Source of the DNA: Magnetospira sp. QH-2
GTDB lineage: Bacteria > Pseudomonadota > Alphaproteobacteria > Rhodospirillales > Magnetospiraceae
Reading direction: 5' to 3'
NCBI RefSeq assembly: GCF_000968135.1
Contig: NZ_FO538765.1
Location: 186,001 to 250,000, forward strand
DNA length: 64,000 nt
Translations under genes and position numbers: made by a program
The notes under the pieces: generated by a model
Databases searched by the model: none
What the model was told of the DNA's origin: nothing
The model's input: the letters and a program-made list of their open reading frames with translations, nothing else
Shown here: positions 32,738 to 39,570 of the stretch, piece after piece
Position numbering within the stretch: position 1 is the first letter of the stretch
How the letters are laid out: each line of letters opens with the position of its first letter

Positions 32738-33433
32738 TTACACGACAGCCACCCCCGCCAACCAGGCCGACAGGTCATCGGTGGCGTGGTGGATATGGTC
32801 TTCGTGATGGCCGTCTCGGCCGAAGTCGGAACCGGTGTCGATCCAAAGGGTGGTCATGCCCAGGGCATGGGCCGGGATCAGGTTGCGGGCCATGTCCTCG
32901 ACCATCACCGTGTCTGTTGGCGCGATGCCGTGGCGGCGGATCAAGGCGTCATAGACTTCCGGGGCGGGCTTGGGCACGAAGTCGGCGGCGAAAATGTCGA
33001 ACACCGCCTCGAATTGGTCGCGGATGCCCAATCGCGCCATCACCCGGTCGGCATGGGGCTCGTCGGCATTGGTGAAGATGATCTTGCGCCCCGGCAGGGC
33101 GGCCAGGGCCTTTTCCAGGCGCGTGTCGCGATCAATGACCGACAAATCAATATCATGGACGAAATCCAGAAAATCATGGGGATCGATATGATGGCGGTTC
33201 ATCAGTCCGCGCAGGGTGGTGCCGTAGTCGCGGAAGTATTGCTTTTGGACTTTGAAAGCCTGGTCCTCGGGCAGATCGAGCAGTCGGGCAATATAGGCCT
33301 TCATCAACACGTCGATCTGATCGAACAATTTGGCCGAGTGGTGATACAGCGTGTTATCCAAGTCAAACACCCAGCATCCCGCTTCACGCAGGCCATGGGG
33401 ATAGGGCAAGGGACTGTGGACGATTTGGCTCAT
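32738..33433 (-). CDS. HAD-family pyrimidine 5'-nucleotidase-like phosphatase
   Basis: This is a 231-aa protein started at MSQIVHSP (ATG two codons earlier also possible). HAD motif I is WVFDLDNTLYHH, motif II IIFTNADEPHA, the motif III Lys in FVPKPAPEVY and motif IV VEDMARNL. The DLDNTLY motif and length match the Sdt1/pyrimidine 5'-nucleotidase subgroup, which dephosphorylates nucleotides in the cytoplasm. It is 88 bp upstream of dapD on the same strand. Confidence 0.85.
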   Translation of the reverse strand: MSQIVHSPLPYPHGLREAGCWVFDLDNTLYHHSAKLFDQIDVLMKAYIARLLDLPEDQAFKVQKQYFRDYGTTLRGLMNRHHIDPHDFLDFVHDIDLSVIDRDTRLEKALAALPGRKIIFTNADEPHADRVMARLGIRDQFEAVFDIFAADFVPKPAPEVYDALIRRHGIAPTDTVMVEDMARNLIPAHALGMTTLWIDTGSDFGRDGHHEDHIHHATDDLSAWLAGVAVV

Positions 33434-33539
33434 GGGCATTGATATAGGCCCATGCGCGAGCGGTGGGAAGCCTCAACCCTTGCCGCCGATGCTTCGGGCT
33501 TCTAAAATCGTTGGCAATTGGGACTTTTCAGAATCGCGA

Positions 33540-35243
33540 ATGCCGGGCATGCCCACCGACCCCCTTGCTTCCCCTATTGAGACCAAACCGTTACTCAGGA
33601 GTGCGGATCTGCGCGCGATGTTGGACGGACAAAGCGATCCGGCGCTGTTGCTCGACACGAAGGGCGCGGTGCTGGCCACCAACCCTCCCGGACAACGGAT
33701 CGTCAATGCCTTGGAGAGCGGCCACCCGACCGACTTCAAACCGCAAATCGTCGCCGCCATGCAGGGCAATGGCCCCTTGACCGGAAGCTACACATTCGAC
33801 GGCGATGACGAAGCGGCGCTGATACTGGAAGTGCAGATCCTGCCTTTGGCCCCACCGCACTTTTTGTTGCTGGGCCGCGATGTCACCTTGGAACGCAATC
33901 TGCGCGCCGCCTTGGTGGATTCCCGCGAGCGTTTCAAGGATCTGGTGGAAGCGTCGTCGGACTTCGCCTGGGAAGTGGGGCCGGAAGGACGCTTCGTCTA
34001 TGTATCGCCGCGCGGCGCCCTGGGCTTCGAGGCGGCCCGGTTGGTCGGCCATGCGCCGTCCGAATTGCTTAAAAAGGGTGGTGATTCGCGCAACCCTTTT
34101 GTCACCCGGGCGGAGGTGGAGGAAGCCGAGGTCTGGGTGCGACGGGCCGATGGCACCCGCGCCTGTCTGATCGTTACCGCCGTGCCGTTGCAGGCCGGAG
34201 ACGGGGCCTGGCGCGGCGCCCGGGGGGTTTGCCGCGATGTGACCTCCGAGCGGGAAAAGGATGCGGCCTTGGCCCGCGCCCATCAGCGGGAAAAGATCCT
34301 CAACAGTGTGGTTGGCGCCATCCGGGACGAAGTGGATCCCCAAGACATGTTGGACGTGGCCGCCCTGGCCACGGCGCAGGCCATATCTGCCGACGGAGTA
34401 CGCATCTACCGTGGCGATGAGCGCGACGGCTTTTATTTGGTCGCCGAACAGGGTACGCCTTCGAGCAACGAGGCGCTGGATGAGTTGGTGCGGAATGTGC
34501 ACGCCGATCACCGGGTGTTGGACAATAACGCCCATGGCCTGTCCATGCTCGCCGCCGCCACGCCTTATCGGCATCAGGTCAATGGCGCGATCTGTGTCTG
34601 GCGTGACGAGAAAGGGAACGCCTGGTCCGATGACGACCGCATTATCGCAGGCGATGTGGCCAATCGTCTGGGTATCGCCTTGGAGCAATTCTCCAACCAC
34701 GAGCGCATCCTCAAGCTATCACGCACCGACGGACTGACCGGACTGCTCAACCGCCGGGCCTTTTTTGAAGACGAACTGCCCCATCGTCTGCGCAAGTCGG
34801 GCAAACCGGGCGGCGGCGGTGCCCTGGTCTATGTGGACCTGGACAACTTCAAGCTGGTCAACGACGTACATGGCCATCAAGCGGGCGACGACGCGCTGCT
34901 CAAGGTCTGTGAAATACTCGATACCCACACCCGCGCCTCGGACCTGCTGGCCCGGCTGGGGGGTGATGAGTTCGTTCTATGGCTCGACCGCATGCCGCCC
35001 GATGTGGTGCGGCAACGGGTCGATGAACTGCATCATTCCGCGTTGGACCTGAAACCCCTGTCTGGAGACATGGCACGACCCTTGGGATTTTCCGTCGGCG
35101 TGGCCATATACGATCCGGCGGTCGAGGAAGGCATGGAAAGCCTGGTGGCGCGGGCCGACGCGGCCATGTACACGGTGAAGAATCGCGGCAAGGGCGGCAT
35201 CGAGATCTCCCTGCCCGGTGGTGGAGAAGGGGAAGCCTCATGA
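33540..35243 (+). CDS. PAS-GAF-GGDEF diguanylate cyclase
   Basis: This is a 567-aa protein; the ATG at 33540 is my choice, with 33489 and 33549 as alternatives. It is soluble. An N-terminal PAS-like segment (about 20-120) is followed by a second PAS (about 125-270: RFKDLVEASSDFAWEVGPEGRFVYVSP), a GAF-like domain (about 285-415) and a GGDEF domain (about 420-560) with SRTDGLTGLLNRRAFF, VDLDNFKLVNDVHGHQAGD and the active-site loop RLGGDEFVLW. The catalytic residues are intact, so it should make cyclic-di-GMP. Its stop overlaps the DUF2336 start (ATGA). Confidence 0.9.
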   Translation: MPGMPTDPLASPIETKPLLRSADLRAMLDGQSDPALLLDTKGAVLATNPPGQRIVNALESGHPTDFKPQIVAAMQGNGPLTGSYTFDGDDEAALILEVQILPLAPPHFLLLGRDVTLERNLRAALVDSRERFKDLVEASSDFAWEVGPEGRFVYVSPRGALGFEAARLVGHAPSELLKKGGDSRNPFVTRAEVEEAEVWVRRADGTRACLIVTAVPLQAGDGAWRGARGVCRDVTSEREKDAALARAHQREKILNSVVGAIRDEVDPQDMLDVAALATAQAISADGVRIYRGDERDGFYLVAEQGTPSSNEALDELVRNVHADHRVLDNNAHGLSMLAAATPYRHQVNGAICVWRDEKGNAWSDDDRIIAGDVANRLGIALEQFSNHERILKLSRTDGLTGLLNRRAFFEDELPHRLRKSGKPGGGGALVYVDLDNFKLVNDVHGHQAGDDALLKVCEILDTHTRASDLLARLGGDEFVLWLDRMPPDVVRQRVDELHHSALDLKPLSGDMARPLGFSVGVAIYDPAVEEGMESLVARADAAMYTVKNRGKGGIEISLPGGGEGEAS

Positions 35244-36511
35244 GCGACGGCCTGGACAAATTGCTCGGCGAGGGAAACGCGGCGGAACTCACCTACGAGG
35301 AAGCCCGGACCCTGGCCCGTCATGACGACCCGGCGGTGCGCCAAGCCTTGGCCGAACGCGACGATATCCGGCCGGAGATTCTTTATTTTCTGGCCGAGGA
35401 CGCCTCCGCCGAAGTGCGTCGGATCATTGCCGGCAACAGCGCCACACCGCATCAGGCCGATCACCTTTTGGCCCGCGATGGCGACGAAGGGGTGCGCTCG
35501 GATCTAGCGGGAAAGATTGCTCGATTGGCCCCGGAACTCAGCGCCTTCGAGGCCGGCAAGGTGGAATTCAAGGCCTATGAACTGCTGGTCACCCTGACCC
35601 GGGACCAAGCGGTCCGGGTGCGCCGGGTGATCGCCGAGACCTTGAAAGACGTGGCCGATGCTCCGGCGGAAGTCATCGGCAGGCTGGCCCGCGATGACGT
35701 ACTCGATGTTTGCGGTCCGGTCCTGCAATTCTCGCCGGTACTCAGCGACGAAGACCTGTTGGAAATCATTCAGGGCGCGCCGGTACAGGGCGCCTTGGGG
35801 GCCATCGCCCGGCGCTCGGAAGTGGCCGAGGTGATTTCCGATGCCATCGCCGAGACCGACGATGTTCCGGCCATCGCCGACCTGCTGGGCAATGCCTCGG
35901 CTCAGATCCGCGAAGAAACCCTGGATGCCATCATCGACCGGGCCAAGGACGTCAAGGCCTGGCACAAACCGCTCACCGAGCGCCCAAAGCTGCACTCCAA
36001 TGCCGCCCGGCGGCTGGCCGGCATCGTCGCCCGGCGCTACCTGAAAACCCTGAGCGACCGCAGCGACCTGGATGAAACCACCGCTGATCGGGTGCGGGCC
36101 GAGGTGGAGCGCCGTCTGGCCGAGGAGCCGGAAGACAACGACGAGGACGACGCCCTATGGGACGATCCCGACGCGGCCCGGGTTGAAGAGGCGGAATCCC
36201 TCCATAATCAGGGTCTGCTGACCGAAGACAAGATGATGGAGCTATTCCGAACAGATCGTCCCATGGGCGAGGTCGCCCTGGCCACCAAGGCCAGCCTGCG
36301 CCCCCGTGAGGTACGCAAAATTCTCTCTGACACCATGGCCAAACCGCTGATTGCCCTGGCCTGGAAAGCGACGCTGAGCCCCGGCTTCGGTGATTTCCTG
36401 CAAATCGAGGTGGTCGAGGTGGATGAACCCAAACGGCTTTTGGTTACGCAAACCGGAGATTTCCCCTTGTCCGAGACCGATCTGGAATGGGAAGCCGGGT
36501 TATTTGGCTGA
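35240..36511 (+). CDS. DUF2336 protein, coupled to the GGDEF gene
   Basis: This is a 423-aa soluble protein made largely of HEAT-like helical repeats (LTYEEARTLARHDDPAVRQALAERDDIRP, AEVRRIIAGNSATPHQADHLLARDGDEGVRSDLA, RVRRVIAETLKDVADAP). This matches DUF2336, a family I associate with alphaproteobacteria. An acidic linker (EEPEDNDEDDALWDD, about 295-310) precedes a C-terminal region. The four-base overlap with the diguanylate cyclase suggests stoichiometric expression and perhaps a physical partnership, which is inference. Confidence 0.82.
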   Translation: MSDGLDKLLGEGNAAELTYEEARTLARHDDPAVRQALAERDDIRPEILYFLAEDASAEVRRIIAGNSATPHQADHLLARDGDEGVRSDLAGKIARLAPELSAFEAGKVEFKAYELLVTLTRDQAVRVRRVIAETLKDVADAPAEVIGRLARDDVLDVCGPVLQFSPVLSDEDLLEIIQGAPVQGALGAIARRSEVAEVISDAIAETDDVPAIADLLGNASAQIREETLDAIIDRAKDVKAWHKPLTERPKLHSNAARRLAGIVARRYLKTLSDRSDLDETTADRVRAEVERRLAEEPEDNDEDDALWDDPDAARVEEAESLHNQGLLTEDKMMELFRTDRPMGEVALATKASLRPREVRKILSDTMAKPLIALAWKATLSPGFGDFLQIEVVEVDEPKRLLVTQTGDFPLSETDLEWEAGLFG

Positions 36512-37415: not shown

Positions 37416-37739
37416 ATGAAGAACCTCGGCCAAATGATGAAGCAGGCCCAGAAGATCCAGGAACGCATGCAGGATTTGCAGACGGAACTGGCCGATGCCG
37501 AAGTGGAGGGCGTCTCCGGTGCCGGCATGGTCACCGTGATCCTGAACGGCAAGGGCGAAATGCGGCGCGTAAAGATCGATCCGTCGCTGGTGGACCCCAA
37601 TGACGTGGAAGTGCTCGAAGATCTGATCGTTGCCGCCCATGGGGATGCCAAGGGCAAAGCCGAACAGATGATGAAGGACAAGATGTCCGAACTCACCGGC
37701 GGCCTGCCGCTGCCTCCGGGCATGCAACTGCCCTTCTGA
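37416..37739 (+). CDS. ybaB: YbaB/EbfC nucleoid-associated protein
   Basis: This is a 107-aa DNA-binding protein started at [19 protein letters not shown] with GAAGGAAG upstream; longer in-frame extensions run antisense to the exonuclease. It has a helical N-terminus, then [29 protein letters not shown] and a C-terminal Met/Gly/Leu-rich tail. It is encoded 13 bp before recR, the usual ybaB-recR pair. Confidence 0.95.
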
Positions 37740-37752
37740 CGGTAACGCACCC

Positions 37753-38343
37753 GTGACCACCGGCTTAGATCCACTGATCCGATTGCTGTCCAAGCTACCC
37801 GGTCTGGGGCCAAGGTCGGCCCGGCGATTGGCGCTGCACCTGGTCAGCCATAAAGAGACGGTGCTCGAACCCCTGGCCCGGACCCTGGCCGAGACAGCGG
37901 AGACCGTTCGCCCCTGTTCCATTTGCGGCAACCTGGACCTGCACGATCCCTGTACCATTTGCTCCGATTCCCGGCGCGACAAATCAACCCTTTGCCTGGT
38001 GGAAGACGTGGCCGACCTTTGGGCGCTGGAACGGGCCATGGCCCATCGCGGCACTTATCATGTGCTCGGGGGAGTGCTCTCGGCGTTGGATGGAATCGGA
38101 CCTGACGATCTCGCCATTGGTGGTCTGCTGCAAAGGGTCGAGGTCGATGGCGTGAGCGAAGTCATTCTCGCCCTTTCGGCGACCATGGACGGCCAGACCA
38201 CGGCCCACTACCTGGCCGAGCGGCTGGCGCCTACCGGCGTGACCCTGTCCGGTCTCGCGCAAGGGGTGCCGGTGGGCGGTGAACTGGACTATCTGGATGA
38301 CGGCACCCTCGCGGCGGCTCTGAAGGCCAGGCGTCCCGTTTAA
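37753..38343 (+). CDS. recR: Recombination mediator RecR
   Basis: This is a 196-aa protein with a GTG start. It has a helix-hairpin-helix ([20 protein letters not shown]), a C4 zinc finger ([16 protein letters not shown]) and a Toprim domain ([34 protein letters not shown]). It acts with RecF/RecO in loading RecA at gaps. Length and motifs are normal; dnaX, often found upstream of ybaB, is not adjacent. Confidence 0.95.
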
Positions 38344-38394
38344 GTCTTTGCGAATCATGCTATAGTCTCGACCAACACAATGGGAGGGGATGCC

Positions 38395-39294
38395 ATGACC
38401 AGCCAGGAAACCGGACCCGCCGAAACGCCTGACGGCGCGGAAGAGGGGAATGATAGCCGCGACCTGTTCTATACCACCTTCCTGTCGGCCCTGCTGGACC
38501 ATCAGGAATGGATCGGACGGGTCAATCGGGCCATCCATCTGGGCGAAGGCGCCGATCCCGATATCGTCGGCGATACCTCGTTTCGCCAAACCCGCTTCGC
38601 GCAGTTTCTGGAAACCGTACAGCCTCACCTGATGCCTCATGTGGAAGCGGTACGCGCGGCCCTGTTCGAGATGCACCAAGACGCTCAGAAGCTCGTGGAG
38701 CATGCCTCCGAGGGGAAATTCTCGGCCGCCGACTACGACACCTGGCTCGAAGCCATGAAAAAGTTCCGCACCGTCGCCGCCCGGCTGGCCGACCATGCGG
38801 ACGATCTTTCCCCATCGGTGGACGAACATACCCGGCTTTATACCCGCGAATACATGGATCAACGCCTGCGCGAACAATGCGACCTGGCGCGCCGGGCCAG
38901 CCAGCCCTTTTGCATTGGCTTATCCGAGCTGGATCAATACGAGGAGATCGAGCGCACCCACGGCTTCCCGGTGATCAAGGCCGTGCTGCGCGAGGTGGCG
39001 CGGCGGTTCATTTCGGCCGTGCGTTTGTATGACAACGTATTCCGTTTCGATGACCAGAAGTTCATGTTCATTTTTCCCACCACTCGCCTGCGCGACGCCA
39101 TTATGGTTTCTGAACGGATCCGCGCCGACGTGGCCAGCCAGCCGGTGGAAACCCCGGCGGGCGAGATATCGGTGACCATTTCGGTCGGCGTGCTGGAGTA
39201 CGGTTTTGGGGAGGTGCCAGAAGACCTGCTCAAGGTCGTCGATGTCAATCTGGCCCATGCCCGCAACGAGGGACGCAACCGGGTGGTGAGCTGA
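38395..39294 (+). CDS. Degenerate CZB-GGDEF protein (DgcZ-like architecture, both sites altered)
   Basis: This is a 299-aa soluble protein; the ATG at 38395 is preceded by GGGAGGGG. The N-terminal helical bundle (about 20-115) resembles the CZB zinc-binding domain of E. coli DgcZ: DHQEWIGRV keeps the first His and FEMHQDAQKL the last, but the Cys of the CxFGxW motif and the other His are missing. The C-terminal domain (about 140-295) has the GGDEF fold, but the active-site loop reads FRFDDQKFMFIF instead of RYGGEEF, and the metal/substrate motif reads ELDQYEEIER instead of DIDRFKLVND. It is probably an inactive c-di-GMP-fold regulator. Confidence 0.75.
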   Translation: MTSQETGPAETPDGAEEGNDSRDLFYTTFLSALLDHQEWIGRVNRAIHLGEGADPDIVGDTSFRQTRFAQFLETVQPHLMPHVEAVRAALFEMHQDAQKLVEHASEGKFSAADYDTWLEAMKKFRTVAARLADHADDLSPSVDEHTRLYTREYMDQRLREQCDLARRASQPFCIGLSELDQYEEIERTHGFPVIKAVLREVARRFISAVRLYDNVFRFDDQKFMFIFPTTRLRDAIMVSERIRADVASQPVETPAGEISVTISVGVLEYGFGEVPEDLLKVVDVNLAHARNEGRNRVVS

Positions 39295-39494: not shown

Positions 39495-39570
39495 TGGTGC
39501 CGCCTGCGTGACTCGAACACGCGACCCTCGCATTACGAATGCGATGCTCTACCAACTGAGCTAAGGCGGC
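39495..39570 (-). tRNA. tRNA-Thr (anticodon CGU)
   Basis: Read on the minus strand, a 7-bp acceptor stem (GCCGCCT with AGGCGGC), a D-arm with AGCTCAGTTGGTAGAGC, an anticodon stem TCGCA/TGCGA around loop TTCGTAA (anticodon CGT), a T-arm GCGTG-TTCGAGT-CACGC and an encoded CCA end form a complete 76-nt tRNA. The anticodon reads ACG codons, so it is threonine-specific. Confidence 0.95.

Follow-up and report, generated by a model that had tools for sequence, protein, structure and literature searches.

A DgcZ-like protein with a dismantled cyclase site, a broken zinc site and a retained c-di-GMP inhibitory site in Magnetospira sp. QH-2

What becomes of a CZB-GGDEF protein once both its zinc site and its cyclase site have been altered? 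The gene at positions 38395–39294 (plus strand) of the window, the 64,000-nucleotide stretch of Magnetospira sp. QH-2 DNA analysed here, raises this question. The open reading frame is a real gene, with an ATG at 38395 preceded by a Shine-Dalgarno-like GGGAGGGG at 38382–38389 and a stop codon at 39292–39294; a promoter scan found no promoter-like site. Its 299-residue product has the layout of E. coli DgcZ (YdeH; PDB 4H54, 3T9O; NCBIfam PRK09894), an N-terminal CZB region followed by a GGDEF domain within about 300 residues, as the initial annotation had claimed. PRK09894 covers residues 28–298 of 299 (E 3.7e-46), at a score of 157.8 bits against a curated cut-off of 256 bits. Domain order, length and overall fold are thus common to the two proteins; the window protein differs from DgcZ in lacking two of the four zinc ligands, in carrying DDQKF in place of the GG(D/E)EF signature (GGEEF in DgcZ) and in falling below the NCBIfam cut-off. 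Judged from the sequences, it is a degenerate DgcZ-like protein whose GTP/metal site is dismantled and whose canonical zinc site is broken, with the folds kept and purifying selection acting in three species.

The GGDEF domain (residues 142–296; 38818–39282) is the only domain that Pfam detects in the window protein (PF00990, 89.6 bits against a cut-off of 23.8, E 2.4e-25). Its best sequence match in the PDB is the GGDEF domain of PleD (1W25, 2V0N, 9G86; 34–35% identity), which is also among the closest folds to the AF2 model (1.3–1.6 Å, Z 26.8–27.3). The model reaches a pLDDT of 95–98 over this domain, where the fold was to be expected, since the input alignment held canonical GGDEF relatives only; the helical N-terminal part (pLDDT 62–82) was in effect folded alone. 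In a Foldseek search, DgcZ 4H54 ranked second (E 4e-16), with nearly the whole length covered.

Within this fold, the active site has been replaced almost entirely. The upstream DxDxFKxxND motif reads ELDQYEEIER, and DDQKF (residues 219–223; 39049–39063) stands for GGEEF, so that the motif changes first noted by eye hold in the alignments. In PleD numbering, for which the correspondence of positions rests on sequence alignments, the changes are D327E, K332E, N335E, D336R, H340F, G343I, D344K, GGEE to DDQK, and K442R. The metal-binding aspartate D327 and the guanine-contacting asparagine N335 have both become glutamate (E178 to E186; 38926–38952); these roles, like those of the phosphate contacts, we take to be established from the PleD structures. 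Among 49 canonical GGDEF domains from the window genome and its order, columns D327, K332, N335, D336, H340, G343, D344, G368, G369, E371 and K442 are 98–100% fixed. D344 is replaced in two of the three orthologues described below, and the remaining near-fixed columns are replaced too; the E370 column, Glu in 76% of the canonical domains, carries Q, A or S. The GGEEF equivalents read DDQKF in the window protein, and TSARF and SQSRF in the other two. As the motif differs in each orthologue, the cyclase motif was lost with no new motif fixed at the loop; nearby positions, GLSELDQ above all, have become invariant in the clade. That cyclase activity has been lost is as certain as sequence allows.

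The inhibitory site (I-site) has been kept. The window protein carries an intact RxxD, RLYD at R210–D213 (39022–39033), which the initial annotation overlooked, followed by D234 and R241 (39094–39117). These four residues align with R359, D362, D383 and R390 of PleD and are invariant in all three orthologues. In PleD, R359, D362 and R390 make c-di-GMP contacts within one protomer (PMC7288161). Not every PleD contact is shared: R386 is Met in the window protein and Ala or Val in its orthologues, and Leu164 occupies the place of R313, through which the neighbouring protomer makes contact; the window protein also differs from PleD in lacking the active-site residues and the receiver domains. Invariance across the clade extends to all four I-site positions, against three of 12 in the active site (Fisher p 0.019, for sites chosen after inspection and three orthologues). 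RxxD occurs in 44 of the 49 canonical domains, so that its presence is the default by descent; what is informative is only that it has outlasted the active site. The full R359-D362-D383-R390 set is kept in only four of the 49. The survival of the I-site in these three sequences is no more than suggestive.

Just two other genomes, members of the same family, were found to carry orthologues, each with the frame open: L010 in G002 (64% identity) and L011 in G001 (62%). The clade is sharply delimited, with scores of 604–618 bits against 125 bits for the next match among 317 genomes of the order, and a class-wide sample of 385 genomes yielded no further orthologue at E 1e-38. A plasmid search gave no match, a scan of viral contigs for CZB relatives likewise none, and the sole match to its exact peptides among genome contigs was an unrelated GGDEF protein. 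In the tree, a long stem (3.43) leads to the three orthologues, which group with full support and have short inner branches (0.18–0.32), as would fit a shift in function and subsequent constraint. The dN/dS (NG86, bootstrap) is 0.34 (0.24–0.47) for the close pair L010/L011, whose recR gives 0.27 and whose exonuclease gene gives 0.29; comparisons with the window gene give 0.27–0.29, with synonymous sites near saturation. Purifying selection on the gene is thus equal to that on its two neighbours. All three genomes share the upstream order exonuclease, ybaB, recR (ybaB-recR at 37416–38343, plus strand). Alignment, GGDEF-fold model and orthologues together back the earlier claim that fold and length have outlasted catalysis and the canonical zinc site, and the selection and synteny support its suggestion that the protein was kept for binding or regulation. 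A look for the same changes in related genomes, as the initial annotation had advised, found them in part: loss of GGEEF and the Cys-to-Thr change in the zinc site are common to the orthologues, whereas the exact residues of the loop differ and one zinc-ligand change is confined to the window species.

What might such a protein bind? The likeliest function, one absent from the initial annotation, would be binding of c-di-GMP at the retained I-site. We give about an even chance to the reading that the protein is a DgcZ-type pseudo-cyclase retained for its I-site, as a receptor of c-di-GMP, similar to PopA of Caulobacter. Lacking cyclase activity, it would use R210, D213 and R241, with D234, to bind c-di-GMP that other cyclases in the cell produce; binding would shift the orientation of a dimer held together by the CZB-like helical bundle, and the reoriented dimer would control a partner protein, as in PopA-type receptors. 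Precedents for a receptor exist in PopA, PelD and SgmT (PMC10333796, PMC5052742, PMC4877007). Degenerate GGDEF proteins are common, at about 24% of GGDEFs (PMC3974145); counting against a receptor, some degenerate domains work without c-di-GMP, such as those of CdpA and YybT (PMC3974145). Like the window protein, PopA is an alphaproteobacterial protein that has lost the GGDEF motif and kept the RxxD I-site. PopA is a REC-REC-GGDEF protein, whereas the input domain of the window protein is CZB-like and its c-di-GMP binding is predicted only; Pfam finds no receiver domain in it, so that its architecture is not that of a PopA orthologue. Our literature search found no DgcZ-layout pseudo-cyclase that keeps the I-site while lacking both the enzymatic and the zinc site.

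The ligand itself is to be expected in the cell, given that about 29 other GGDEF domains of the window genome (about 30 GGDEF domains in all) have intact motifs. No PilZ domain (PF07238) was found there by a search that was positive in control genomes, and c-di-GMP is presumably read by other receptors, which lends weak circumstantial support to a receptor role. Three further proteins of this genome (L111, L112 and L113; G000:C1:2559643, 3114878 and 1504658) have degenerate GGDEF motifs (DGYDF, DVNTF and NDHRF, respectively), all with RxxD kept. A broader version of the receptor reading, in which a CZB-GGDEF protein turned at the level of the family into a zinc-independent receptor coupling c-di-GMP to the recombination-repair locus ybaB-recR, strikes us as very doubtful.

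The main rival holds that the pseudo-cyclase acts purely by protein contact, as a scaffold or in a heterodimer with an active cyclase, and binds no c-di-GMP; we consider it possible, on the unlikely side. The longest invariant runs of the clade, among them RQTRFAQFLE in CZB alpha-3, the linker LADHADDL, and RLREQCDL, look like interaction surfaces, and the fold that permits GGDEF dimers is kept. A candidate partner is the canonical CZB-GGDEF paralogue of the window genome (G000:C1:2197937–2198830), which has the same layout, keeps H-C-H-H and GGEEF and shares only about 29% identity with the window protein. This paralogue was not found in the two relatives, whose drafts are 93% and 81% complete, and protein contact leaves unexplained why the I-site was kept as a set.

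The other altered site lies in the N-terminal bundle. The CZB-like four-helix region (residues 23–138; 38461–38808) is collinear with the DgcZ CZB structure 3T9O, a match that is weak alone (E 0.03), and hhalign against canonical CZB halves establishes the homology (probability 95%, E 3.8e-8); the model likewise has helices here. In the phmmer alignment to 3T9O and 4H54, the DgcZ ligands H22, C52, H79 and H83 of the PF13682 zinc site (three His, one Cys) correspond to H36, T66, L90 and H94. Hence, His36 (38500–38502) and His94 (38674–38676) are kept, while Thr66 (38590–38592) and Leu90 (38662–38664) mark lost ligands, confirming for the window species the reduction to two histidines read from the letters. 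No intact ligands lie elsewhere: the collinear alignment leaves no candidate cysteine, and the sole cysteines, C162 and C173, sit in the GGDEF domain. L010 and L011 read H-T-H-H, with all three histidines retained, so that the loss of the cysteine (Thr in all three orthologues) is common to the clade and the change to Leu90 is specific to the window species.

In a second rival reading, the bundle might still be a metal-binding sensor, using His36, His94 and other ligands, or in the relatives three histidines plus Thr or water. Apart from the H-T-H-H of the relatives, this improbable alternative gains from several members of the order in which GGEEF is intact and Asp, Thr or Ser replaces the Cys, and from the DgcZ C52D mutant, which binds zinc more tightly than the wild type (PMC8262984). 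Against it stand the two of four ligands left in the window species and the Pfam CZB family (PF13682), which matches the canonical paralogue and finds no match in the window protein. Under the receptor reading, the CZB part would be a dimerisation or partner-binding module and not a zinc or hypochlorous-acid sensor; the protein would offer a natural case of a CZB module without its zinc chemistry, suited to testing whether CZB works as such a unit.

Loss of the zinc site by itself appears ordinary in related, apparently active proteins. Among 28 other CZB-GGDEF proteins of the order, a biased sample drawn by similarity to the zinc-less clade and in which L042 may lack a CZB domain, nine keep H-C-H-H, 19 lack at least one ligand and all 28 keep GGEEF. 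In two of these 19, Asp replaces the Cys and the three histidines remain; both proteins might still bind zinc. We accordingly rejected the idea that the cyclase motif and the zinc site were lost in one linked event, since zinc-site loss recurs with GGEEF intact. Three other genomes of the order carry tandem CZB-GGDEF gene pairs (L019/L031, L022/L032 and L020/L029) in which GGEEF is intact and zinc ligands have been lost from one copy or from both.

Persisting cyclase or other nucleotide activity is highly improbable. A motif degenerate at one residue, AGDEF for example, can still be active (PMC3974145), whereas the window protein has replacements at the two glycines and the two acidic residues as well as at the metal Asp and the guanine-contacting Asn, the loop differs per orthologue, and E208Q alone leaves DgcZ unable to make c-di-GMP (PMC8262984), so that we rejected an active cyclase on residue loss. 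A decaying pseudogene, to which the lost active site and long branch might point, has next to no chance given a frame open in three species, conserved synteny and a whole-gene dN/dS of 0.27–0.34 (95% bootstrap upper bound at most 0.47).

Elsewhere in the window, at 33432–36511, a PAS-GAF-GGDEF gene overlaps a DUF2336 gene by 4 bases; neither was found beside the orthologues in G001 or G002. Directly downstream of the pseudo-cyclase gene lies a tRNA-Thr (CGT) gene at 39495–39570 on the minus strand.
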